Shown piece by piece: positions 46,891-57,190 of a stretch of DNA of 64,000 bases. The stretch spans positions 62,001 through 126,000 of the forward strand of contig CAMAVM010000003.1 in NCBI GenBank assembly GCA_945861705.1, written 5' to 3'. The notes beneath the pieces were generated by a model that saw only the letters and a list, made by a program, of their open reading frames with translations, had not been told where the DNA came from and did no database searches. The position numbers and the translations under genes were made by a program. Each line of letters opens with the position of its first letter. Positions within the stretch are counted from its first letter, which is position 1. Origin of the DNA: Methylomagnum ishizawai (GTDB lineage Bacteria > Pseudomonadota > Gammaproteobacteria > Methylococcales > Methylomonadaceae).

Positions 46891-48558
46891 TTAGTTCTCC
46901 GCTGCGCGGCCTTTTTGCGGGAACAATCCGCGCGGGCGCTTTTGGATAAACAAGATGATGAACACCAAAACGAGTATCTTAGCGAGGACGGCACCCGCCA
47001 CAGGTTCGAGCAGCTTATTGGCTATCCCCAAGGTAAAACCTGCCACCAGCGTACCCCAAAGATTGCCTACCCCACCGAACACCACCACCATGAAAGAATC
47101 GACGATATAGGACTGTCCCAAATTCGGGCCGACATTGGTAATCTGGCTCAAGGCCACGCCAGCTACACCAGCGATGCCAGAACCCAAGCCAAAGGTTAAG
47201 GCATCAACCCGCGCAGTAGGGACACCCATTGCTTTTGCCATATTGCGATTTTGGGCAACCGCGCGGACTTCCAGCCCTAAACGGGTAGATTTAAGGATTT
47301 GCAGCAATAAGGCGAACACCATCAAGCAAAACACCAAGATGTACAAGCGATTCCAGGTTAGCGAGAGAAAATCGTTGATTTGCAAAGTGCCGCTCATCCA
47401 TTCCGGTGCGGCGACACTGCGGTTCAAAGGTGAAAAAATTGACCGCACCGTTTGCTGTAAAAACAAGCTGACCCCAAAGGTTGCCAGCAAAGTTTCCAGA
47501 GGACGACCATAAAGGAATCGGATAATACCGCGCTCAATCGCAATACCTACCAAAGCGGAAATCATAAACGCAGCGGGAATAGACAATATCAATGACCACC
47601 CCAGGGAATTCGGCATAAGCTGCTGCATGACGTAGGTGGTGTATGCACCCAGCATCATCAATTCGCCATGTGCCATATTGATAACACCCATGACCCCAAA
47701 GGTAATCGCCAAGCCTATAGCAGCCAAGACCAACACAGCGCCCAGGCTTAAACCGAAAAATAAGGTTTCAACGCCAGCATAGAGTTTCAATCGGGAATTA
47801 ATCGTAACTAAGGCCGCTTTGGCCTGATTGCGAACATCCGTATCCGCTTCCACATAATTGCCATCGGCATCTTTCTCGACCAGCGCATTCAAGCGATTCA
47901 CTACGTCTTGCGTAGCATGGTTTTTGAGCAGATCTATCGCGCTTAACCGTGCGGTCTTGTCCGTGCTGTTTAAGTCTTCCAAGCCAAGAACCCGTTTAAT
48001 TTCATCTTGAACGCTTGAGTCCGGTTCAATGGTTAGGCGGTCACGCAATAAGCCTAGCCCTTCTTCATCTATCGCTTTGGCGATGGCATGGACGGCAGCT
48101 ATCCTTACCTTGGCATCGTTGGCCTTAAGTTCCAGGCGACCGATGGTTTTCCGCAACGACGTTCTAAGGCTGTTATTGACCGTGATCTTTTGCGTGGCAT
48201 CACGGTCAACCCTACCTAAATCTTGTCCGGTTTTAGCATCATTGACCTGATAACCCGTGCCGTTGTCTGTACCGATAACCAGTTTGCCGTCGTTCTTTAG
48301 CTTTAACAAATGCCCATCCAATAAGGCTTGCAAAATGACAATCGCCTTGGGTTCTTGCACGGCAGCCAGTTGCTCGACCGCCGCACTGCGTTCCTGCATG
48401 GATGCGGCAGTAAGCTTCGTCAATGCTTCATTAAAGACATCAATCTGCACTGTTTCTTCACCAAGCGTAAAACTTGGCATTAGCAGCATTAACAGTGCCA
48501 TTGAAAGGAAGCAGCGTTTGAAAAAAAAAGTTTTCATTCTATGTGTTATGGATTGCAT
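46891..48558 (-). CDS. urtB: Urea ABC transporter permease UrtB
   Basis: The protein has a signal sequence, a periplasmic helical domain (to about residue 270, HEAT-like and typical of UrtB) and a LivH-type permease domain. Landmarks of the last are GVMGVINMAHGELMMLGAYTTYVMQ, VRAVAQNRNMAKAMGVPTARVDALTFGLGSG and VFGGVGNLWGTLVAG. I place the start at the ATG at 48558; the ATG at 48537 is equally plausible. Upstream sequence is a hairpin-rich repeat, so the ribosome-binding site may be partly provided by it. Confidence 0.92.
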   Translation of the reverse strand: MQSITHRMKTFFFKRCFLSMALLMLLMPSFTLGEETVQIDVFNEALTKLTAASMQERSAAVEQLAAVQEPKAIVILQALLDGHLLKLKNDGKLVIGTDNGTGYQVNDAKTGQDLGRVDRDATQKITVNNSLRTSLRKTIGRLELKANDAKVRIAAVHAIAKAIDEEGLGLLRDRLTIEPDSSVQDEIKRVLGLEDLNSTDKTARLSAIDLLKNHATQDVVNRLNALVEKDADGNYVEADTDVRNQAKAALVTINSRLKLYAGVETLFFGLSLGAVLVLAAIGLAITFGVMGVINMAHGELMMLGAYTTYVMQQLMPNSLGWSLILSIPAAFMISALVGIAIERGIIRFLYGRPLETLLATFGVSLFLQQTVRSIFSPLNRSVAAPEWMSGTLQINDFLSLTWNRLYILVFCLMVFALLLQILKSTRLGLEVRAVAQNRNMAKAMGVPTARVDALTFGLGSGIAGVAGVALSQITNVGPNLGQSYIVDSFMVVVFGGVGNLWGTLVAGFTLGIANKLLEPVAGAVLAKILVLVFIILFIQKRPRGLFPQKGRAAEN

Positions 48559-48560
48559 TT

Positions 48561-48658
48561 TTCCCACGCTCCGGCGTGGGAATGCTGTTTGTGACGCTCC
48601 AGCGTCCAGCAACACTAGAACGTTGCTGGATGAGTTCCCACGTCGGAACGTGGGAACT
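48561..48658. repeat. Four tandem hairpins (REP-like) between the cupin gene and urtB
   Basis: Four perfect stems lie head to tail: TTCCCACGC/GCGTGGGAA, GACGCT/AGCGTC, CCAGCAAC/GTTGCTGG and GTTCCCACGT/ACGTGGGAAC. The first and fourth stems share the same core, so the array is roughly symmetric. It is transcribed inside the urea operon and could stabilise or partly terminate the upstream message, lowering urtB-ure expression relative to urtA. Confidence 0.75.
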
Positions 48659-48703
48659 ATTTATTAGGTAGACTCGGCTTACTAAGCGCATCCGAATTCG
48701 TTC

Positions 48704-49060
48704 TTATTGTTCTGCCAAAGCGTATCCCGCACCACCAGGGGCAACCACCGAGACAAATATAAAAGGTGAGTTGCCGACTGTCCTTGCACCATGCACTTGG
48801 TTGGGTTTCGCCACAGCAATATCGTTAGTTTTAATACGGCTGACTATTCCGTCGCCTTGAAAATAGTCAGCCGTACCGGATAATACTGTCCAAGTGTCTT
48901 GCCCATGCGGATGGACATGGGCGGCAATCTCTTGCCCTGGATTGACATACCAAACGACAATCACGGACTCTGGTGTTTCGAGTACCACTGAGCGTATAGG
49001 CAGGCCTTCCGAGGGCTGGATAAAGTCTGCAACTCGGAATAATCTTGTTTCGGATGCCAC
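48704..49060 (-). CDS. Small cupin protein within the urea operon
   Basis: The 118-residue single-domain cupin has HVHPHGQDTWTVLSGTADYFQGDG (three His and a Glu/Gln-type first motif) and PNQVHGARTVGNS (second motif His), so metal binding is plausible. It lies between urtA and urtB on the same strand, 51 bases after urtA. Cupins are not standard members of urt operons; a role in binding a urea-derived or amide metabolite, or nickel, would be guesswork. Confidence 0.8.
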   Translation of the reverse strand: MASETRLFRVADFIQPSEGLPIRSVVLETPESVIVVWYVNPGQEIAAHVHPHGQDTWTVLSGTADYFQGDGIVSRIKTNDIAVAKPNQVHGARTVGNSPFIFVSVVAPGGAGYALAEQ

Positions 49061-49111
49061 AAACTTTTTATTACCTTATCCGTTAAGAAAACCTGCCTGC
49101 CCAAACCAGGA

Positions 49112-50413
49112 TTACTTATAGTTTTGCCCAGAACACTTTTTGGTTTTGGTGTTGTAATTACCGCAACTAATCGGTGCTGTCCAATCGGCAATAATAGGCT
49201 TGCTTTCGGGTAAGAAATCCGACCACGCGTCGCCATCGACGACCTTATTGGTTTGCCACACGGTAGCAAATTGGCCGTCATCCTGGATTTCACCGATTAA
49301 CACGGGTTTGCTGATATGGTGGTTGGGCAACATTTTGGCCGTGCCGCCGGTCAGGTTAGGAAATTCCACGCCGATAATGGCATCTTGCACCTTGGCGGGG
49401 TCAGTAGAACCTGCTTTTTCAACGGCTTTTACCCACATGTTGAAGCCGATGTAGTGCGCTTCCATCGGGTCGTTAGTCACCCGCTTTGGATTCTTGATGT
49501 AATCCTGCCATTGCTTGATAAACGCGGCATTTTTGGTGGTGTCGACGCTCATGAAATAGTTCCATGCGGCAAGATGCCCGACCAGCGGCTTGGTGTCTAT
49601 GCCGGACAATTCTTCTTCGCCAACCGAAAACGCAACAACCGGAATGTCTTCCGCTTTAATGCCCTGGTTGCCCAGTTCTTTGTAGAAAGGCACGTTGGCA
49701 TCGCCATTGATCGTCGAAACCACCGCCGTTTTCTTGCCCGCCGACCCGAACTTCTTGATGTCGGCAACTATGCTTTGCCAATCGGAATGACCAAACGGCG
49801 TGTAGTTAATCATGATGTCTTTTTTAGCCACGCCTTTTGCCTTAAGGTAAGCCTCAAGGATTTTGTTGGTCGTGCGGGGGTACACGTAATCGGTTCCCGC
49901 CAACACCCAGCGTTTCACTTTCAGGTCGTTCATCAAATAATCGACCGCAGGAATCGCTTGCTGGTTCGGCGCAGCTCCGGTGTAGAAGACGTTTTTAGAC
50001 GATTCTTCGCCTTCGTATTGCACGGGGTAAAACAAGACCCCGTTCAATTCTTCAATAACAGGCAAGACCGATTTACGCGACACCGATGTCCAGCAACCGA
50101 AAATGGCCGCCACCTTGTCTTTGGTCAATAATTCACGGGCTTTTTCGGCAAACAACGGCCAGTTGGAAGCGGGATCAACCACAACAGCCTCCAGCTTTTT
50201 GCCTAGCAAACCGCCTTTCTTGTTTTGCTCGTCGATTAACATCAGCATGGTGTCTTTCAGTGTGGTTTCGCTAATCGCCATCGTGCCGGATAAGGAATGT
50301 AATACGCCGACTTTGATGGTGTCTTCGGCTTGGGCATAACCTGCGCCCAAGCTTAGTGCGGCAACTGTCATAGCAGCCGCTAAGTTACGCAATTTTTGTG
50401 AAAACTTCTTCAT
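49112..50413 (-). CDS. urtA: Urea ABC transporter substrate-binding protein
   Basis: The 433-residue protein has a signal peptide ending at AQA-E, then the UrtA fold: IKVGVLHSLSGTMAISE, EAVVVDPASNWPLFAEKARELL, FGCWTSVSRKSVLPV and NGVLFYPVQYEGEESSKN, a diagnostic set. It binds urea in the periplasm. The ATG at 50413 has AGGA about 10 bases upstream; the frame opens earlier inside the porin gene. First transporter gene after the porin, 28 bases downstream. Confidence 0.95.
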   Translation of the reverse strand: MKKFSQKLRNLAAAMTVAALSLGAGYAQAEDTIKVGVLHSLSGTMAISETTLKDTMLMLIDEQNKKGGLLGKKLEAVVVDPASNWPLFAEKARELLTKDKVAAIFGCWTSVSRKSVLPVIEELNGVLFYPVQYEGEESSKNVFYTGAAPNQQAIPAVDYLMNDLKVKRWVLAGTDYVYPRTTNKILEAYLKAKGVAKKDIMINYTPFGHSDWQSIVADIKKFGSAGKKTAVVSTINGDANVPFYKELGNQGIKAEDIPVVAFSVGEEELSGIDTKPLVGHLAAWNYFMSVDTTKNAAFIKQWQDYIKNPKRVTNDPMEAHYIGFNMWVKAVEKAGSTDPAKVQDAIIGVEFPNLTGGTAKMLPNHHISKPVLIGEIQDDGQFATVWQTNKVVDGDAWSDFLPESKPIIADWTAPISCGNYNTKTKKCSGQNYK

Positions 50414-50441
50414 AACAGTAGTCCTGATTAAATGGTGGAAA

Positions 50442-51677
50442 TTAGATTTGTAATTGGAACCCGAGTTTGATGGCATTAATGCTGTCGCCGGAGGCGGTCG
50501 AGCTATAATCCAAGCCTTTCGTGAGCAAGTCGCCATACGTCCAGCTTAACGATACCCGTGCGTTATGAGCATCGATGACATAGTTAACACCGCCCTCGTA
50601 TGCATCACGATCAGAACTGGTGCTGGGCATCACACTGGTGTAACGGAAATACGGTTGAAACTGTCCGATCCAGACTTTATCGGGGATTAAGTACATGCCG
50701 CTTACGTCATAAGCATTGCCTTCAAACATGGTAAAGCCACCGCCGGCATCGCGTGAAGCCTGGCTGTAACCATTGCCAATGCCATAGTTTTTGTATTCGC
50801 CATTGAAGGTAATCACACCGTTGTTGGGCAGCACTTTTTCCAGCAAAATATCTGCTGTTGTTCCACGGAATGTGCCAGGATCATCCGATGTACCAGCGCC
50901 GTCTTCCTGATATTGGTTAGTAACCCCGACCGTCAGAATATCGCCGCCTTTACCGTAGTATGTGCCGGAGGTGTAGTAGCCTGGATTTTTCTCGACATCC
51001 CAGAAATTATAGGCAACACGTTGGGCATAAAGGATATTGTCGTCCACGTTTGCGCCGCCCCGTAAGCCACGGAAAAATCCGGCTGCGTATTGCAAACGTC
51101 CACCAAAAGCTGCCCCCCAGAAAGTCGCGCCGTCATCACGGCCAAAAGAACCCGCCGACGTGCCATCGGATTTGATGGTCAGGTTGAAGTCTGCCGGTTC
51201 AAAGGGAGTACCCGATGCAAAGACGTTGTAAATCGGGCTGTAGAATGGCCCGTTCATTTCCCTACGTTCAGCTGGCACCAACATCCGACCTATCCAAAGG
51301 TTGATGTACGGGTTGTATTCAAACTTGCCGATAGCATCCAAAATCCGCATTTCGCCGCCGTTGCCACAAGTCTGGCAATCGGTATTGAATTCGAGCTTGA
51401 TGTATTCATGGATTTGCGCGTTCAAATATAAGCGGATGTTATCCAGCGCAAAATCATTGCTCCATTGGCTATTGCCGGGCGTACCTGCTGAATCTTCTGC
51501 TGCGGTAAAGCTGGTGCGTAAACCCGCACCTACGCTAACCCATTTCGTGTCATCAATTTTGAAGGTAGCACCCGCCTGGGTTGCAGGTGAATGCATCGCC
51601 GCCAACATCAATAAAGTCATAGCTGGGAGTAGCGGCTTGCTTCTTATCCCAGCCCTTATTTGTTTCGTAATTCCCAT
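50442..51677 (-). CDS. Outer-membrane porin heading the urea operon
   Basis: The 411-residue protein has a signal peptide (cleaved at TQA-G) and the alternating aromatic/polar pattern of a beta-barrel, ending in a hydrophobic strand (INAIKLGFQLQI). It carries a CQTCG pair, unusual for porins. AGGGGA precedes the ATG at 51677. Gene order (porin-urtA) suggests an outer-membrane channel for urea or short amides; specificity is inferred only from context. Confidence 0.85.
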   Translation of the reverse strand: MGITKQIRAGIRSKPLLPAMTLLMLAAMHSPATQAGATFKIDDTKWVSVGAGLRTSFTAAEDSAGTPGNSQWSNDFALDNIRLYLNAQIHEYIKLEFNTDCQTCGNGGEMRILDAIGKFEYNPYINLWIGRMLVPAERREMNGPFYSPIYNVFASGTPFEPADFNLTIKSDGTSAGSFGRDDGATFWGAAFGGRLQYAAGFFRGLRGGANVDDNILYAQRVAYNFWDVEKNPGYYTSGTYYGKGGDILTVGVTNQYQEDGAGTSDDPGTFRGTTADILLEKVLPNNGVITFNGEYKNYGIGNGYSQASRDAGGGFTMFEGNAYDVSGMYLIPDKVWIGQFQPYFRYTSVMPSTSSDRDAYEGGVNYVIDAHNARVSLSWTYGDLLTKGLDYSSTASGDSINAIKLGFQLQI

Positions 51678-51786
51678 GACAGATCCCCTAAGTTTGAAAT
51701 GTGATTTGTTTACGCATCTGGCAAGTCCAAATGCAGCCAATAGTTCAGGCTGGGAGGGATTATTTGATTTAGGGGGAATTTGTACA

Positions 51787-51820
51787 ATACGTCATCTGAC
51801 TCATCAGTTAAATGACGTAT
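51787..51820. promoter_or_regulatory. Palindromic candidate operator upstream of the urea operon
   Basis: ATACGTCAT and ATGACGTAT form a perfect 9-bp inverted repeat with a 16-base centre that itself contains CTGA/TCAG. It lies 110 bases upstream of the porin start and 59 bases upstream of the divergent lipoprotein gene, where a regulator could control both. No sigma-54 element with correct spacing was found for the porin promoter. Confidence 0.45.
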
Positions 51821-51878
51821 ATCCAATTGTCTGGCTCTGGCATACTGTTATACAACTCAACCAACCGTATGAAATTTT

Positions 51879-52655
51879 ATGAAACAGCCATTAAGCCGGG
51901 TTACCGAATGTGTTTACTTATTTGCGTTGTGCGGCTTGATTGGCTGTACACCAGACGTGGTAAAAAAACAGCAACCGTTTGATTTCAATCATCCTGGGCA
52001 AATTGAATTGCAGCTAGAAGGTATTGATTCTTCCGTATCATCAGCCGACATAGGTCAGCAAGTCGTCAATAATCTTGCCGAGTGGGGGTATCCGATTGGG
52101 GCAAAAGACAACCAACCGTTCAGCCATGTTTTGAAAGCGACCGTTGGCAAGATAGAACATGCCAACACGCCTACTGGCTTTTCGTTTTCAGCAGGCAACT
52201 CAGATCCGAGGGCTATAGATTTCCAAAAAGCCGATGTCCTGCCCATTCGTTGCGAGCTGTCTACCATTGATCACCCTGAGCAATCCGGAGAACTCAATAT
52301 GGACTTGATGGCGAGCGAAGCGGACAAACTGGCACTGGTATCCGGCAAATTGGCTGACCACATCAGCACGGTCTGTTTCAATTTGCTGCGCGAACTGAAA
52401 TGGCCTGAGCCACATAAAACCAATGGGCAAAACAGCGTTGCACCCAGTTGGATGCCGGAAATCCGCATTGAAACCAAAGAAGCCCCAACCAATCCCGGCA
52501 CTAAATCTGCACCTTCTGATCCTGCTGATAAGGCGGAAGTGGAGGTCGAAGAATCAGCCAATGAAGAACCAGCCAATAAGAATGCCAGGAAGCAAATCGT
52601 CATCCATAACCAAGGTTCGCCCGTGATTTTCCAGTTTGGGCATGAACGGAAATAG
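51879..52655 (+). CDS. Lipoprotein of unknown function
   Basis: The 258-residue protein has a lipoprotein signal peptide with lipobox LIGC (Cys23) and a soluble domain (about 40-185) containing a DPRAIDFQKADVLPIRCEL stretch. A Pro/Glu/Ala/Asn-rich linker (about 205-240) precedes a short C-terminal strand. I do not recognise the family. It is divergent from the urea operon and is followed by a short hairpin 35 bases after its stop. Confidence 0.7.
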   Translation: MKQPLSRVTECVYLFALCGLIGCTPDVVKKQQPFDFNHPGQIELQLEGIDSSVSSADIGQQVVNNLAEWGYPIGAKDNQPFSHVLKATVGKIEHANTPTGFSFSAGNSDPRAIDFQKADVLPIRCELSTIDHPEQSGELNMDLMASEADKLALVSGKLADHISTVCFNLLRELKWPEPHKTNGQNSVAPSWMPEIRIETKEAPTNPGTKSAPSDPADKAEVEVEESANEEPANKNARKQIVIHNQGSPVIFQFGHERK

Positions 52656-52689
52656 TGGTAAGCGCCAACCCTACATAAGTAAATTGAAT

Positions 52690-52712
52690 AGACGCACCGA
52701 TTATGTGCGTCT
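52690..52712 (+). terminator. Hairpin after the lipoprotein gene
   Basis: AGACGCAC and GTGCGTCT form a perfect 8-bp stem around a 7-base loop, followed by a mixed G/T stretch (GTTGTTGATTT) rather than a pure T run. It is a plausible, moderately efficient terminator for the lipoprotein transcript. Confidence 0.5.
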
Positions 52713-52867
52713 GTTGTTGATTTCGCACCAGAAACGGCTGTGATTTGGATGATCACATCTCTTATGCGCAATAATGGTTTTCCGAAATTGGTGCATAAGG
52801 TAACTAACCCTTATATTTCATAAGGATTAATCACCCAGATAACGGGCAGGATAAAAATTTTATTAAA

Positions 52868-52884
52868 TTGGCACGTATCATGCT
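52868..52884 (+). promoter_or_regulatory. Sigma-54 (RpoN) promoter upstream of the ATP-grasp operon
   Basis: TTGGCACG-N4-ATGCT matches the -24/-12 consensus (TTGGCACG-N4-TTGCW) at all but one position, with the GG and GC pairs separated by exactly 10 bases (52870-52871 and 52882-52883). Transcription would begin near 52895. An enhancer-binding activator such as NtrC would be required. A hairpin terminator follows at 52936-52974, 61 bases before the next gene. Confidence 0.65.
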
Positions 52885-52894
52885 TTATTTTAAT

Positions 52895-52974
52895 GAAGTT
52901 AATAAAGTTGTCCTCATCGTGTGTTGTACCTTCTCAAGGCACTGTTCTTGTCAAAGAATGAGTGCCTTTTTTTT
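52895..52974 (+). ncRNA. Candidate RpoN-dependent small RNA or attenuated leader
   Basis: The region between the predicted sigma-54 start (near 52895) and the end of a strong terminator is about 80 nt long and has no open frame with a ribosome-binding site. Its 3' half is a stable hairpin. Size, promoter type and terminator are all compatible with a nitrogen-regulated small RNA, but the same layout would serve as a leader with regulated read-through into the downstream operon. No known RNA family is recognised. Confidence 0.4.
52936..52974 (+). terminator. Strong intrinsic terminator ahead of the ATP-grasp operon
   Basis: AAGGCACT/AGTGCCTT (8 bp) is extended inward by TTCTT/AAGAA around a short GTCA-type loop with one bulged G, and is followed by eight T. 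An outer GTGTTG/CAACAC pair can further close the structure. It faces plus and lies well past the lipoprotein gene, directly before the ATP-grasp gene. Confidence 0.75.
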
Positions 52975-53035
52975 GCAACACTGAAGGGAAAATAAACCGT
53001 CCTTATTTCTTCGCATCTATAAGAGGGTACGCACT

Positions 53036-54484
53036 ATGGCCTCACTATGGGATCACTACACGGTCACTGATGCTTACGATGAAATGCGTGGCTCTGCAAA
53101 CCAGGCCAGGCCATCTAGCCATCGCTTGAGCAATTATTTGGATAGCCTTGACCATGAGACATTGGATGTCCGAAGGACTGCGGCTGATATAGCAATCATG
53201 GAAATGGGCATCACCTTTACGGTCTACAGCGACGAAGGCAATATCGACAGGGCATGGCCGTTCGACATTATTCCCCGCATTATCGAAAACAAAGAATGGC
53301 GGCGCGTGGAAGTCGGCCTGGAACAACGGCTTAAAGCCTTAAATTGTTTTATCAACGACACTTATAACGAACAATCGTTTATCAAGGAGGGCTTGATACC
53401 GGAACATATCATTGCCAGTTCAGCCAATTTCCTCAAGGAATGCGTTGGGATGCAGCCCAAGTTCGGGGTATGGGCAAATATTTGTGGCAGTGATTTGGTC
53501 AGGGATAAGGACGGCACTTTTTATGTGCTGGAAGATAATTTGCGCGTCCCGTCCGGCGTGTCGTACATGATCGAAAACCGGGTGATTACCAAAAAGGTAT
53601 TCCCGGAATTATTGCAAGACTTGGATGTGCAACCCGTTGACGATTATCCGGCGCATTTACTTGAAATGCTGGTGTCCATAGCATCCGTGGATGTCAAAAA
53701 TCCACGGATTGCGGTTCTAACCCCGGGGATTTACAACTCGGCGTATTTCGAACATGCTTTTTTGGCGCAACAAATTGGTGCGGAGTTGGTCGAAGGTGCC
53801 GATCTAATCGTGCAAGAAGACGACTGCGTTTATATGCGCACCATCAACGGATTGGAAAAAGTGGATGTCATTTATCGGCGTATCGACGATCAGTTCCTTG
53901 ATCCTGATGTATTCCGTAAAGATTCCATGTTGGGCGTACGGGGTCTGATAAGGGCTTGGAAGGCTGGCAATGTCGCATTGGCGAATGCACCGGGTAGTGG
54001 AGTTGCCGATGATAAGGTGGTCTATTCCTACGTACCGCAAATGATCCGTTATTACCTCAATGAAGAACCCATCCTGCCGAATGTGCCGACTTATTTATGC
54101 AGCGACCCTGGGCAGCTTTCTTATGTGTTGGCACACCTTGAGGAACTGGTGGTAAAACCCGCTAATGAATCAGGCGGTTATGGGATGCTGGTGGGTCCAC
54201 ACGCCACGAAGGGACAAGTCGAAGAATTTCGTAAAATTATCAAGGCACAACCGCGCAACTACATCGCTCAACCCACATTGGCGCTGTCAACCTGCCCGAC
54301 CTTATGTGACAATCAACTGGAGCCGCGTCATGTCGATTTGCGCCCTTTTGTCCTGCAAGGGGAAAACAGTTTTGTGACGGCTGGCGGATTGACCCGCGTC
54401 GCCCTAAAAAAGGGTTCCCTGGTCGTCAATTCTTCGCAAGGTGGCGGCAGCAAAGACACCTGGATTATCAACACGGGCAAGTAA
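53036..54484 (+). CDS. Circularly permuted ATP-grasp (type 2) protein
   Basis: The 482-residue protein matches the COG2308-type circularly permuted ATP-grasp family. It contains YVLEDNLRVPSGVSYMIENR, RIAVLTPGIYNSAYFEHAFLA, ANAPGSGVADDKVVYSYVP and the C-terminal LRPFVLQGENSFVTAGGLTRVA. These are predicted to form amide or peptide bonds using ATP (amidoligases); the natural substrate is unknown. It is the first gene of a three-gene unit with alpha-E and a metallopeptidase, preceded by a sigma-54 promoter and a terminator hairpin. Confidence 0.9.
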   Translation: MASLWDHYTVTDAYDEMRGSANQARPSSHRLSNYLDSLDHETLDVRRTAADIAIMEMGITFTVYSDEGNIDRAWPFDIIPRIIENKEWRRVEVGLEQRLKALNCFINDTYNEQSFIKEGLIPEHIIASSANFLKECVGMQPKFGVWANICGSDLVRDKDGTFYVLEDNLRVPSGVSYMIENRVITKKVFPELLQDLDVQPVDDYPAHLLEMLVSIASVDVKNPRIAVLTPGIYNSAYFEHAFLAQQIGAELVEGADLIVQEDDCVYMRTINGLEKVDVIYRRIDDQFLDPDVFRKDSMLGVRGLIRAWKAGNVALANAPGSGVADDKVVYSYVPQMIRYYLNEEPILPNVPTYLCSDPGQLSYVLAHLEELVVKPANESGGYGMLVGPHATKGQVEEFRKIIKAQPRNYIAQPTLALSTCPTLCDNQLEPRHVDLRPFVLQGENSFVTAGGLTRVALKKGSLVVNSSQGGGSKDTWIINTGK

Positions 54485-54486
54485 AT

Positions 54487-55419
54487 ATGTTATCCCGATC
54501 TGCTGAACGCTTATATTGGCTGGCGCGGTACCTAGAACGGACTGAAAATACGGCTCGGTTACTGAGCGTGTACATGAACCTCATGTTCGATATGCCGATG
54601 GACGTAGAAGTGACTTGGCGCAATCTGCTGACAATATTTGGTGCGGAGGAAGAATTCTTTCAGCTTTACGATGTACCTAACGAACAAAACACGATGCGCT
54701 TCCTGCTGACCGACATTGCCAACCCGGGTTCCTTGTTCTCATCGTTGAATTCTGCCCGGGAAGATATACGGACATCCCGCGAGCTCATGCCTGACGAGGC
54801 TTGGCAGCAGGTCAATGAAATGTATTTGTTCGCGAAGAATAATGTGGAGACTGCCACCAATCGCCGGGGCAGGGTGTTGATATTGAACGAAATTATGCGG
54901 GGTTGCCAATGTTTCACGGGTTTTTTGTCGGGTGCTATGAGCCACAATGATGCACTCCAGTTTATCCGCTTAGGGCGAAATATTGAACGGGCTGACATGA
55001 CGACGCGTATACTCGATATTGCCTCAATCATTTTGGCCGATGACCGTAGCGACAAATTGCGCCAACACGAAAATGCCTTGTGGATGCATGTCTTGAAATC
55101 CTTAAGTGCCTTGTTGATGTACCGCAAACATCGGCGGCATCGGATCAATAGCGGTGACGTGCTGGATTACTTGCTCAAGGATCAAGACTTCCCGCGCTCG
55201 GTTATTCATTGTGTCAATGAAGTCGAAACCTGCATTAAACGCCTTCAGAAGTCGGAAGGATTAAACGATAACCTGAACACATTGGCATCTTCCTTAATGG
55301 CTACTGACATCCATCGCATCACTCCGGCGCAACTGCACAAACTACTGGATGACATCCAGGTCAAGTTAGGCATTACCCATAACCAGGTCGCGTCAACCTG
55401 GTTTTTAGCGGCTAATTAA
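54487..55419 (+). CDS. Alpha-E domain protein
   Basis: The 310-residue, almost entirely helical protein begins MLSRSAERLYWLARYLERTENTARLL, the signature of the alpha-E (COG2307, DUF403) family, and keeps the LGRNIERADMTTRILDIAS core. It is the standard partner of the circularly permuted ATP-grasp protein and probably binds the substrate peptide or stabilises the ligase. Start is 2 bases after the upstream stop, indicating coupled translation. Confidence 0.9.
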   Translation: MLSRSAERLYWLARYLERTENTARLLSVYMNLMFDMPMDVEVTWRNLLTIFGAEEEFFQLYDVPNEQNTMRFLLTDIANPGSLFSSLNSAREDIRTSRELMPDEAWQQVNEMYLFAKNNVETATNRRGRVLILNEIMRGCQCFTGFLSGAMSHNDALQFIRLGRNIERADMTTRILDIASIILADDRSDKLRQHENALWMHVLKSLSALLMYRKHRRHRINSGDVLDYLLKDQDFPRSVIHCVNEVETCIKRLQKSEGLNDNLNTLASSLMATDIHRITPAQLHKLLDDIQVKLGITHNQVASTWFLAAN

Positions 55420-55428
55420 GTCTAGGGC

Positions 55429-56493
55429 ATGATAAGGTTTTATTGCCAATGCGGGACTGAGATTTTCTTTGAAAACAGCCATTGTGCTGTGTGTGGCAAG
55501 GTTTTGGGATTCGACCCGAAACGACAAAATTTGTTGGCGTTGCAAGCCCATGAAGACAATATCTGGTTCTCTGTCACCACAAGCAGGCGTTATAGGCTTT
55601 GCTCACTGAGGCAGGATTTGGGTTGTAACTGGTTAATTCCAGTCCAGCAAAGTGACAGCCAATGCTTGTCCTGCCACCTGACACGCACCATTCCCACCCT
55701 GACCTTGCAACGTAACCACACGCGCTGGCAAAGCTTGGAACAGACCAAAAGAAGGGCTTTGTATACCATCCTGCGGTTGGGTTTAGCGTTTAACAGTTCT
55801 ACCAATAGCTCCAGTTGTTCGGTTACTACGCCGCTTCCACCCCTTATTTTCGACTTCCTCGAAGACCAGCAGTCGAATTCGGAGGTAGGCCTGGATTTTG
55901 TTTATAGCGGCCACAGCAATGGCGTAATTACCATCAATGCGGCGGAAGCTGACGATAGCTTTCGTGCCGCCAACCGCGAACTCATGAATGAAATCTATCG
56001 AACCTTACTGGGGCATTTTAGGCATGAATTGGGGCATTATTATGGCCTGTTGCTTAAAAATGATGACAGAACATTCAACGAGTATCAGCAACTATTTGGG
56101 GATGAAAACCAAGATTACAAAGCTGCACTTGAACATTACTATGCCGAAGGAGCCAGGGACGATTGGCGGGAAAGTTTTATCAGTGCCTATGCTTCCGCCC
56201 ATCCCCAGGAAGACTGGGCGGAAACCTGGGCGCACTACTTGCATATCAGCGACACCTTAGAAACTGCCCAGGCTTATCAGGTCATGAGTTGCAATCCAGT
56301 CGGCTTTGCATTTGAAAGGGAATTGTCCGAGTGGGCTAATCTGTCGGTAATACTGAACGCCTTGAACCGTAGCATGGGTGTTGACGATGCCTATCCTTTC
56401 GTCATTACGCCAATCATTGGGCAAAAGCTGAATTTTATAGACCGTCTCGTAAAGGCTTGGCAAGTGAACGGTCATAATGCGGCAAGGCAATAA
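55429..56493 (+). CDS. Putative zinc-binding metallopeptidase with zinc ribbon
   Basis: The 354-residue protein has an N-terminal zinc ribbon (CQCG near the start and CAVCG) plus a second Cys pair (CLSCHL, about residues 80-85). The catalytic helix is GHFRHELGHYYG, an HExxH motif, with downstream PQEDWAETWAHYLHI supplying the third ligand. It matches the bacterial zinc-binding metallopeptidase family often found with ATP-grasp/alpha-E genes. Its last 59 bases overlap the 3' end of the convergent Anbu gene. No signal peptide, so it acts in the cytosol. Confidence 0.85.
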   Translation: MIRFYCQCGTEIFFENSHCAVCGKVLGFDPKRQNLLALQAHEDNIWFSVTTSRRYRLCSLRQDLGCNWLIPVQQSDSQCLSCHLTRTIPTLTLQRNHTRWQSLEQTKRRALYTILRLGLAFNSSTNSSSCSVTTPLPPLIFDFLEDQQSNSEVGLDFVYSGHSNGVITINAAEADDSFRAANRELMNEIYRTLLGHFRHELGHYYGLLLKNDDRTFNEYQQLFGDENQDYKAALEHYYAEGARDDWRESFISAYASAHPQEDWAETWAHYLHISDTLETAQAYQVMSCNPVGFAFERELSEWANLSVILNALNRSMGVDDAYPFVITPIIGQKLNFIDRLVKAWQVNGHNAARQ

Positions 56494-57190
56494 AGGCGTT
56501 ACGCAATTCCTCGTGCCAACGGCGTTTCAGTAATAACAGGTACTCGTCGTCAGCGTCAAAGCAATAGTATTCTTCAAAGCAGAAACTGTCCTTGCGGTAA
56601 ACCAGGAGTTCTACTGGCGATCCGACGCTGGCATTGCTGCGTATCGTAGAATCCATTGAAATCAGGCTACACAGACCCGCTTCATCGAGCGGTGTGGACA
56701 TTTTTACGAACCGATCCAGAATCGGCTTGCCGTATTTGCTTTCGCCGATCTGGAGGTAGGGAGTTTGCCTGGACGTGGTGATGCTGTTGCCTTCAGCGTA
56801 AATCAGGTAAGCGCCTGGAGGCTCTGCGCCGACCTGTCCGGCGATAATAAAGGTCGCGGTCGCATTAAAACTGGATTGCCCACCTTCTTCAGTATGCCGT
56901 TTTTGTTTCTCGATGCTGACCCGCCCCAGATAATCGGCGGCTTCAGACAAATACTGCATGGAATTGAGATTGACCAAGGCGTTTTCGCGCTTATCGCGCC
57001 GCAACTGCTCAACTACGGCTTGCGTCGTAGCCAAATTGCCAGCGCTCAACAAGATCAGTTTACGATCTTCCAAGGTAGCAAAAACGTGCATTTTGCTGTA
57101 GATGCTGACATTGTCGATTCCCGCATTCGTGCGGGAGTCAGAAGTCAACACCAAACCTTCATCGACCGAAACCGCGATGCAATAGGTCAT
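56435..57190 (-). CDS. Anbu: proteasome-like (HslV-related) N-terminal nucleophile peptidase
   Basis: The 251-residue protein starts MTYCIAVSVDEGLVLTSDSRTNAGIDN, so removal of Met exposes the catalytic Thr. Asp and Ser/Arg residues of the proteasome-beta fold follow in SDSR and SAGNLATTQAV, and IIAGQVGAEPPGAYLIYAEGN matches Anbu. Anbu is an ancestral-type proteasome subunit normally encoded with ATP-grasp, alpha-E and transglutaminase genes; no transglutaminase is seen here. GGAG precedes the start. It lies 169 bases downstream of the response regulator on the same strand. Confidence 0.92.
   Translation of the reverse strand: MTYCIAVSVDEGLVLTSDSRTNAGIDNVSIYSKMHVFATLEDRKLILLSAGNLATTQAVVEQLRRDKRENALVNLNSMQYLSEAADYLGRVSIEKQKRHTEEGGQSSFNATATFIIAGQVGAEPPGAYLIYAEGNSITTSRQTPYLQIGESKYGKPILDRFVKMSTPLDEAGLCSLISMDSTIRSNASVGSPVELLVYRKDSFCFEEYYCFDADDEYLLLLKRRWHEELRNAFIALPHYDRSLAKPLRDGL

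Follow-up and report, generated by a model that had tools for sequence, protein, structure and literature searches.

Features of the Locus

The DNA analyzed here, referred to below as the window, is a stretch of 64,000 nucleotides from a genome that we place in Methyloglobulus (Methylococcales). At positions 52868-52884 of its plus strand lies a sigma-54 -24/-12 element, TTGGCACGTATCATGCT, in which the GG (52870-52871) and the GC (52882-52883) show the GG-N10-GC arrangement. It is followed by a putative small RNA (sRNA) gene of about 80 nt (52895-52974, plus strand), delimited with the covariance models R1-R3 and by the difference in identity between core and flanks; the 5' end near 52895 is a prediction from the -12 element, and the 3' end is the T run. 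The gene comprises a near-invariant single-stranded core, TCCTCATCGTGTGTTGTACCTT (52911-52932, plus strand), presumed to be the mRNA-pairing region and read in the window as the CUC-rich UCCUCAUCGUGUGUUGUACCUU, and an intrinsic terminator (52936-52974, plus strand), recognized by its fold and covariation and consisting of a 14-pair stem-loop, AAGGCACTGTTCTTGTCAAAGAATGAGTGCCTT (52936-52968), and eight T ending at 52974. The terminator ends 61 nt before the ATG (53036) of an operon on the plus strand, which starts with a gene for a circularly permuted ATP-grasp protein (53036-54484; Pfam CP_ATPgrasp_2, E 8e-166) and continues with an Alpha-E gene (54487-55419; Pfam Alpha-E, E 9e-84) and a zinc-ribbon, putative metallopeptidase gene (55429-56493; Pfam Peptidase_Mx, E 5e-87). 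A gene for a proteasome-fold (Anbu-like) protein is convergent to them (56435-57190, minus strand; Pfam Proteasome, E 6e-4, narrowly missing the cut-off). The initial annotation, which had reported the GG-N10-GC element, the hairpin with eight T and the ATP-grasp gene 61 bases on, was exact to the base.

The fold predicted for positions 52895-52975 has an energy of -20 kcal/mol (z -3.1), and none of 200 shuffled sequences was equally stable. The hairpin at 52936-52968 was not listed by a simple terminator scan of the window, probably owing to its length and bulge, and a search of Rfam 15 with an E limit of 1 returned nothing for positions 50000-56000. The sigma-54 element taken alone is not a proof of a promoter, because the strict pattern TGGCAY-N6-TGC occurs 71 times in the 4.07 million positions of the window's genome; strong evidence for a real promoter comes from comparison, the element being conserved ahead of this RNA in many genomes. 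Further upstream, an inverted repeat, AATAGACGCACCGATTATGTGCGTCTGTT (52687-52715), is located 3' of a lipoprotein-like gene, with a similar one in another genome, G001 (locus L019); it could be the terminator of the lipoprotein-like gene or another NtrC-like palindrome (GCACC...TGTGC).

Conservation and Distribution of the RNA

When 61 related genomes were searched at the DNA level, six congeners and genome G034 gave matches to the RNA stretch, G001 and G034 two apiece. Methyloglobulus, including M. morosus KoM1, was also among the DNA pattern matches obtained across the whole collection; those in Vogesella, Dyella, Pseudomonas and other unrelated bacteria were judged from the expected number to be due to chance. 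No copy of the RNA was found in the Methyloglobulus genome G003 (87% complete), and in G004 the -24 box is degenerate. The promoter, the near-invariant core (UCUC[A/C]UCGUGUGUUGUACCUU) and the terminator are common to the extracted and oriented copies. Among ten close copies, identity reaches 93% in the core, 77% in the promoter and 71% in the terminator arm, as against 27-30% in the 60 nt on each side and 27% in the sequence 3' of the terminator; conservation is thus maximal in the unpaired core and ends past the terminator. In the terminator stem, 10 of the 13-14 pairs are changed on both sides, and the covariation score exceeds those of all 500 shuffles in both alignments, these alignments having been fitted to the structure, which favours covariation.

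The covariance model R1, built from the 70-nt RNA segment with the promoter left out, gave 52 matches in 237 genomes of the family. The pattern TGGCAY-N6-TGC was present at most 60 nt upstream in 33 of the 42 matches that had not been used for training (chance about 0.001 per 60-nt interval), in 19 of 40 inspected matches of a second set, outside the first training set, and in 20 of 23 new places inspected later. As the promoter was never part of the models, its presence is independent evidence that weak matches are real. The models R2 and R3 added a second form of the RNA, CCUGUGUUUGGUACCUU, with a terminator such as GGCGUUCUAUUUUCUCGGAUAGAACGCC. The strictest search (E up to 1e-4) placed the RNA in 93 of 311 Methylococcales genomes from 16 genera, with one to three copies each, a count in which only part of the matches was inspected and a few of the weakest (for example, the promoter-less L023 and L095) are probably false. 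Across the class, R2 yielded low-scoring matches in about 30 of 274 genomes; outside Methylococcales its matches were low-scoring only, and all four inspected were without the promoter. As far as comparison of sequences goes, the conservation of the RNA, of its promoter and of its terminator, as well as their spread, is established; the covariance search in relatives proposed in the initial annotation found the RNA, the -24/-12 element and the hairpin to be conserved.

Some copies of the sRNA gene are in tandem; in genus g15 (L351, L352, L353) two of them follow each other at a few hundred bases, each with its own sigma-54 element. The promoter-less loci L023, L047, L052 and similar ones were dropped from the family. 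Most of the 21 promoter-less matches of the second set correspond to one other terminator-bearing element, which is a different thing: it reads GCGTTATATTCTTCCTAA...AAGGCGGTT..AACCGCCTTTTTTTT, is conserved and lacks a sigma-54 element (L116 at G000:C1:159095-159148, L104-L106, L108, L111, L114, L117, L119, L120, L123, L128). In many of the loci a conserved TGCGACAATATGCCACATT-like stretch is found about 90 nt 5' of this element, which is possibly another sRNA of these methanotrophs.

Putative Activator Sites

An unbiased count over the sequences preceding 42 copies of the sRNA gene ranked GCACCA/TGGTGC, which we take to be the NtrC half-site, first among the hexamers (9.9-fold enriched). The half-site GCACCA occurs in 23 of the 42, the window included, and many of the sites lie at about -121 to -124 and at -80 from the -24 element. 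In the window, hexamer enrichment points to a probable NtrC-type enhancer site with a GCACCA half-site at 52725-52741 (-144 relative to the -24 element) and, together with recurrence in relatives, to two more, TGCGCAATAATGGT and TTGGTGCA, at 52765-52795, the second of them at -80 (strand unassigned in all cases). By a stricter test, the scores of full palindromes upstream were barely above those of shuffled sequences, hence the sites are only partly conserved. There are no GCACCA sites upstream of some copies (M. morosus, G002), which could reflect variation in the activator or degenerate sites. Judged from these motifs, NtrC is the likely activator of the sRNA gene. The claim of the initial annotation that a sigma-54-dependent small RNA of about 80 nt is made under nitrogen stress gains strong comparative support from the conserved RNA and promoter, the NtrC-type sites, the covarying terminator and the free-standing copies described below. 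The ATP-grasp leaders of other genera at L280, L281, L284, L295, and L300 carry GCACCA between a sigma-54-like element and the start codon, that is, 3' of the promoter, which is an unusual place for NtrC-type sites.

Candidate Targets and Function of the Core

The core is pyrimidine-rich and largely unpaired, and Hfq is encoded in the window's genome (PF17209, 103 bits). Target prediction over 2.03 Mb of this genome gave the core no advantage over shuffled cores in either duplex energy or seed score. Exact complements to 11-mers of the core revealed no convincing shared target in eight Methyloglobulus genomes; a single gene was matched in two genomes, deep within the coding region. The start site of a pmoC-like gene was rejected as a target: its 12-pair run is kept in one congener, G006, and is broken in G001 and G005. 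This gene (G000:C3:58659-59429, L255), whose start region could pair with the core, is located just outside the window.

The outcome of target prediction would agree with an RNA that encodes a very short peptide or titrates a protein instead of pairing with mRNA, and for titration there is a precedent in CrcZ-type RNAs, which act by titrating Hfq/Crc. Direct inspection, however, revealed no ATG-led frame in the window RNA, and the core proved to be one copy of a mixed sequence, not a repeated protein-binding motif, so that we consider this explanation unlikely and retain pairing of the core with mRNAs as the presumed mode of action.

Relationship to the Downstream Operon

Free-standing copies of the sRNA gene adjoin rmuC-like, hemL-like and deaminase-like genes; in genus g13 the neighbours vary and are often convergent (rmuC-like, hemL-like). 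Of the two copies in G001, the first occupies a place syntenic with the window, flanked by the same lipoprotein-like gene and response regulator, without the ATP-grasp operon, and the second stands before an ATP-grasp operon. The varying neighbours and the operon-less copy of G001 indicate that the RNA is encoded by a free-standing gene, and the many free-standing copies argue that it acts in trans as an sRNA and is not in the first place an attenuator.

As to the operon, its sampled counterparts in other genera showed no sRNA and carry a sigma-54-like element located 51-152 nt upstream of the matched start. By contrast, no sigma-54 element other than that of the sRNA precedes the ATP-grasp/Alpha-E operon in Methyloglobulus, G008 and G034. 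In the sRNA-linked leaders 21-61 nt separate the last T run from the ATG, and in the eight such leaders no sigma-54 element of the TGGCA form was found after the terminator; G034 has there one bare GG-N10-GC without the rest of the consensus. In G217 (g24) the sRNA gene may be followed by a separate sigma-54-like element and then by the ATP-grasp gene.

The sole sigma-54 element and the short distance to the ATG would also suit a cis-acting leader, in which an attenuator with regulated read-through sets the expression of the ATP-grasp operon and the short RNA is a by-product. Nevertheless, many members of the family have no downstream ATP-grasp gene or have convergent genes, G001 possessing one of each kind, and conservation culminates in the unpaired core and is absent past the terminator. 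A GCAACAC after the T run of the window, which could pair with GUGUUGU before the hairpin in the manner of such a switch, is missing in most relatives, and no shared antiterminator partner strand was seen in them downstream of the terminator. All this makes regulated attenuation quite improbable. Hardly credible is a constitutive terminator that limits leakage from the operon's own sigma-54 promoter, with a functionless short transcript: other ATP-grasp operons of the family do have sigma-54-like elements at a similar distance, without a terminator, but the 22-nt core hardly varies from genus to genus, with flanks at the random level, and is conserved in free-standing copies without the operon.

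The initial annotation had offered, as another option, a leader whose read-through sets the expression of the operon. In the sense of an attenuator switch this does not agree with the 27% identity past the terminator and the lack of a shared antiterminator; a weaker form of it is likely in Methyloglobulus, considering the sole sigma-54 element. We infer from the arrangement of these leaders that the operon lost its own sigma-54 promoter and that read-through has taken its place; the sRNA promoter is the one from which transcription probably reaches the operon in Methyloglobulus and two relatives.

Proposed Mechanism

We find it highly likely that positions 52868-52974 represent an sRNA gene under a sigma-54 promoter of its own, with NtrC as the probable activator and with leakage through the terminator as the probable source of operon transcription in Methyloglobulus and two relatives. 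Sequence data suggest that this is very probably an undescribed gene for a regulatory RNA of about 80 bases, induced by nitrogen shortage in methane-eating bacteria. The mechanism could be as follows. Upon nitrogen scarcity, NtrC would activate the sigma-54 promoter of the sRNA gene. Transcription would stop at the strong intrinsic terminator and leave an RNA of about 80 nt whose U-rich tail is suited to Hfq. The exposed, near-invariant CUC-rich segment of this RNA would probably pair with the translation starts of several mRNAs, lowering their translation. In Methyloglobulus and the two relatives, leakage through the sRNA terminator would in addition transcribe the ATP-grasp/Alpha-E operon from the shared promoter. 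With moderate confidence we further suppose that this methanotroph family uses the undescribed multi-copy sRNA family as its nitrogen-stress RNA and that in one lineage the sRNA gene now serves the ATP-grasp/Alpha-E operon, which would have lost a sigma-54 promoter of its own; one promoter would then provide both the regulatory RNA and, by leakage through the terminator, the mRNA of a nitrogen-starvation operon.

Comparison with Known Systems

Among the described sRNAs, MmgR (alpha-r8; Rfam RF00519, suhB), known from Sinorhizobium and other alphaproteobacteria, comes closest. It resembles the methanotroph RNA in size (77-80 nt) and in the intrinsic terminator, and its NtrC-activated, nitrogen-responsive expression resembles the putative NtrC control proposed here. 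MmgR has an anti-Shine-Dalgarno-like C-rich segment, to which the pyrimidine-rich, largely unpaired core is comparable, and is Hfq-dependent (PMC7143759). It also has a 5' hairpin, which is not apparent in the methanotroph RNA. With the RF00519 model, the best inspected copy scored 31.3 bits against a gathering cut-off of 41, and none of the 237 genomes passed; most sub-threshold matches were elsewhere in the genomes, not at the sRNA copies. Because of these sub-threshold scores the RNA was not filed in RF00519. By analogy, it may work like MmgR.

The Qrr sRNAs of Vibrio are driven by sigma-54 with LuxO and occur in several copies per genome with a near-invariant core. Several sigma-54-driven copies and such a core are shared by the methanotroph RNA, but its sites are of the NtrC type instead of LuxO sites, no link to quorum sensing was seen, and there was no Rfam match in the searched stretch of the window. 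NrsZ, CrcZ/CrcY and other sRNAs of Pseudomonas and Azotobacter are RpoN-dependent, free-standing and tied to nitrogen or carbon status. They have in common with the methanotroph RNA an RpoN-type promoter and a free-standing gene; they belong to a different bacterial order, the methanotroph RNA has no repeated CA motifs, and the searched stretch of the window gave no Rfam hit with an E value of up to 1. GlnZ of Enterobacteriaceae is reported to be a nitrogen-limitation sRNA released from the 3' end of the glnA mRNA (PMC9731577) and shares with the methanotroph RNA the putative link to a nitrogen-regulated transcript; it derives from a 3' UTR, whereas the methanotroph RNA is encoded 5' of an operon, between a promoter and a terminator of its own. 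Searches of the open-access literature turned up no account of an sRNA under nitrogen control in gammaproteobacterial methanotrophs, although methane oxidation in nature can be limited by the supply of nitrogen. The conserved multi-copy candidate, with its clear promoter and core, offers a single gene for deletion or overexpression, and the shared-promoter arrangement makes it possible to examine how a single promoter comes to control both an sRNA gene and an operon.

The downstream genes resemble an Anbu locus in the clear ATP-grasp and Alpha-E genes, the match of the Anbu-like gene being the sub-threshold one given above. They differ from it in that the Anbu set includes a transglutaminase gene, whereas in the window the third gene is a peptidase gene and the Anbu-like gene is convergent. 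Anbu is upregulated under nitrogen limitation in Pseudomonas putida (PMC5666114), and its high expression under nitrogen starvation has been reported (PMC6376114). By this analogy, a nitrogen-regulated sRNA before an Anbu-like operon would fit. Close to the sRNA gene, positions 46891-50536 of the minus strand carry urea ABC transporter-like genes (urtB-like by sequence; urtA-like, Pfam Peripla_BP_5), which would represent another nitrogen-scavenging function.
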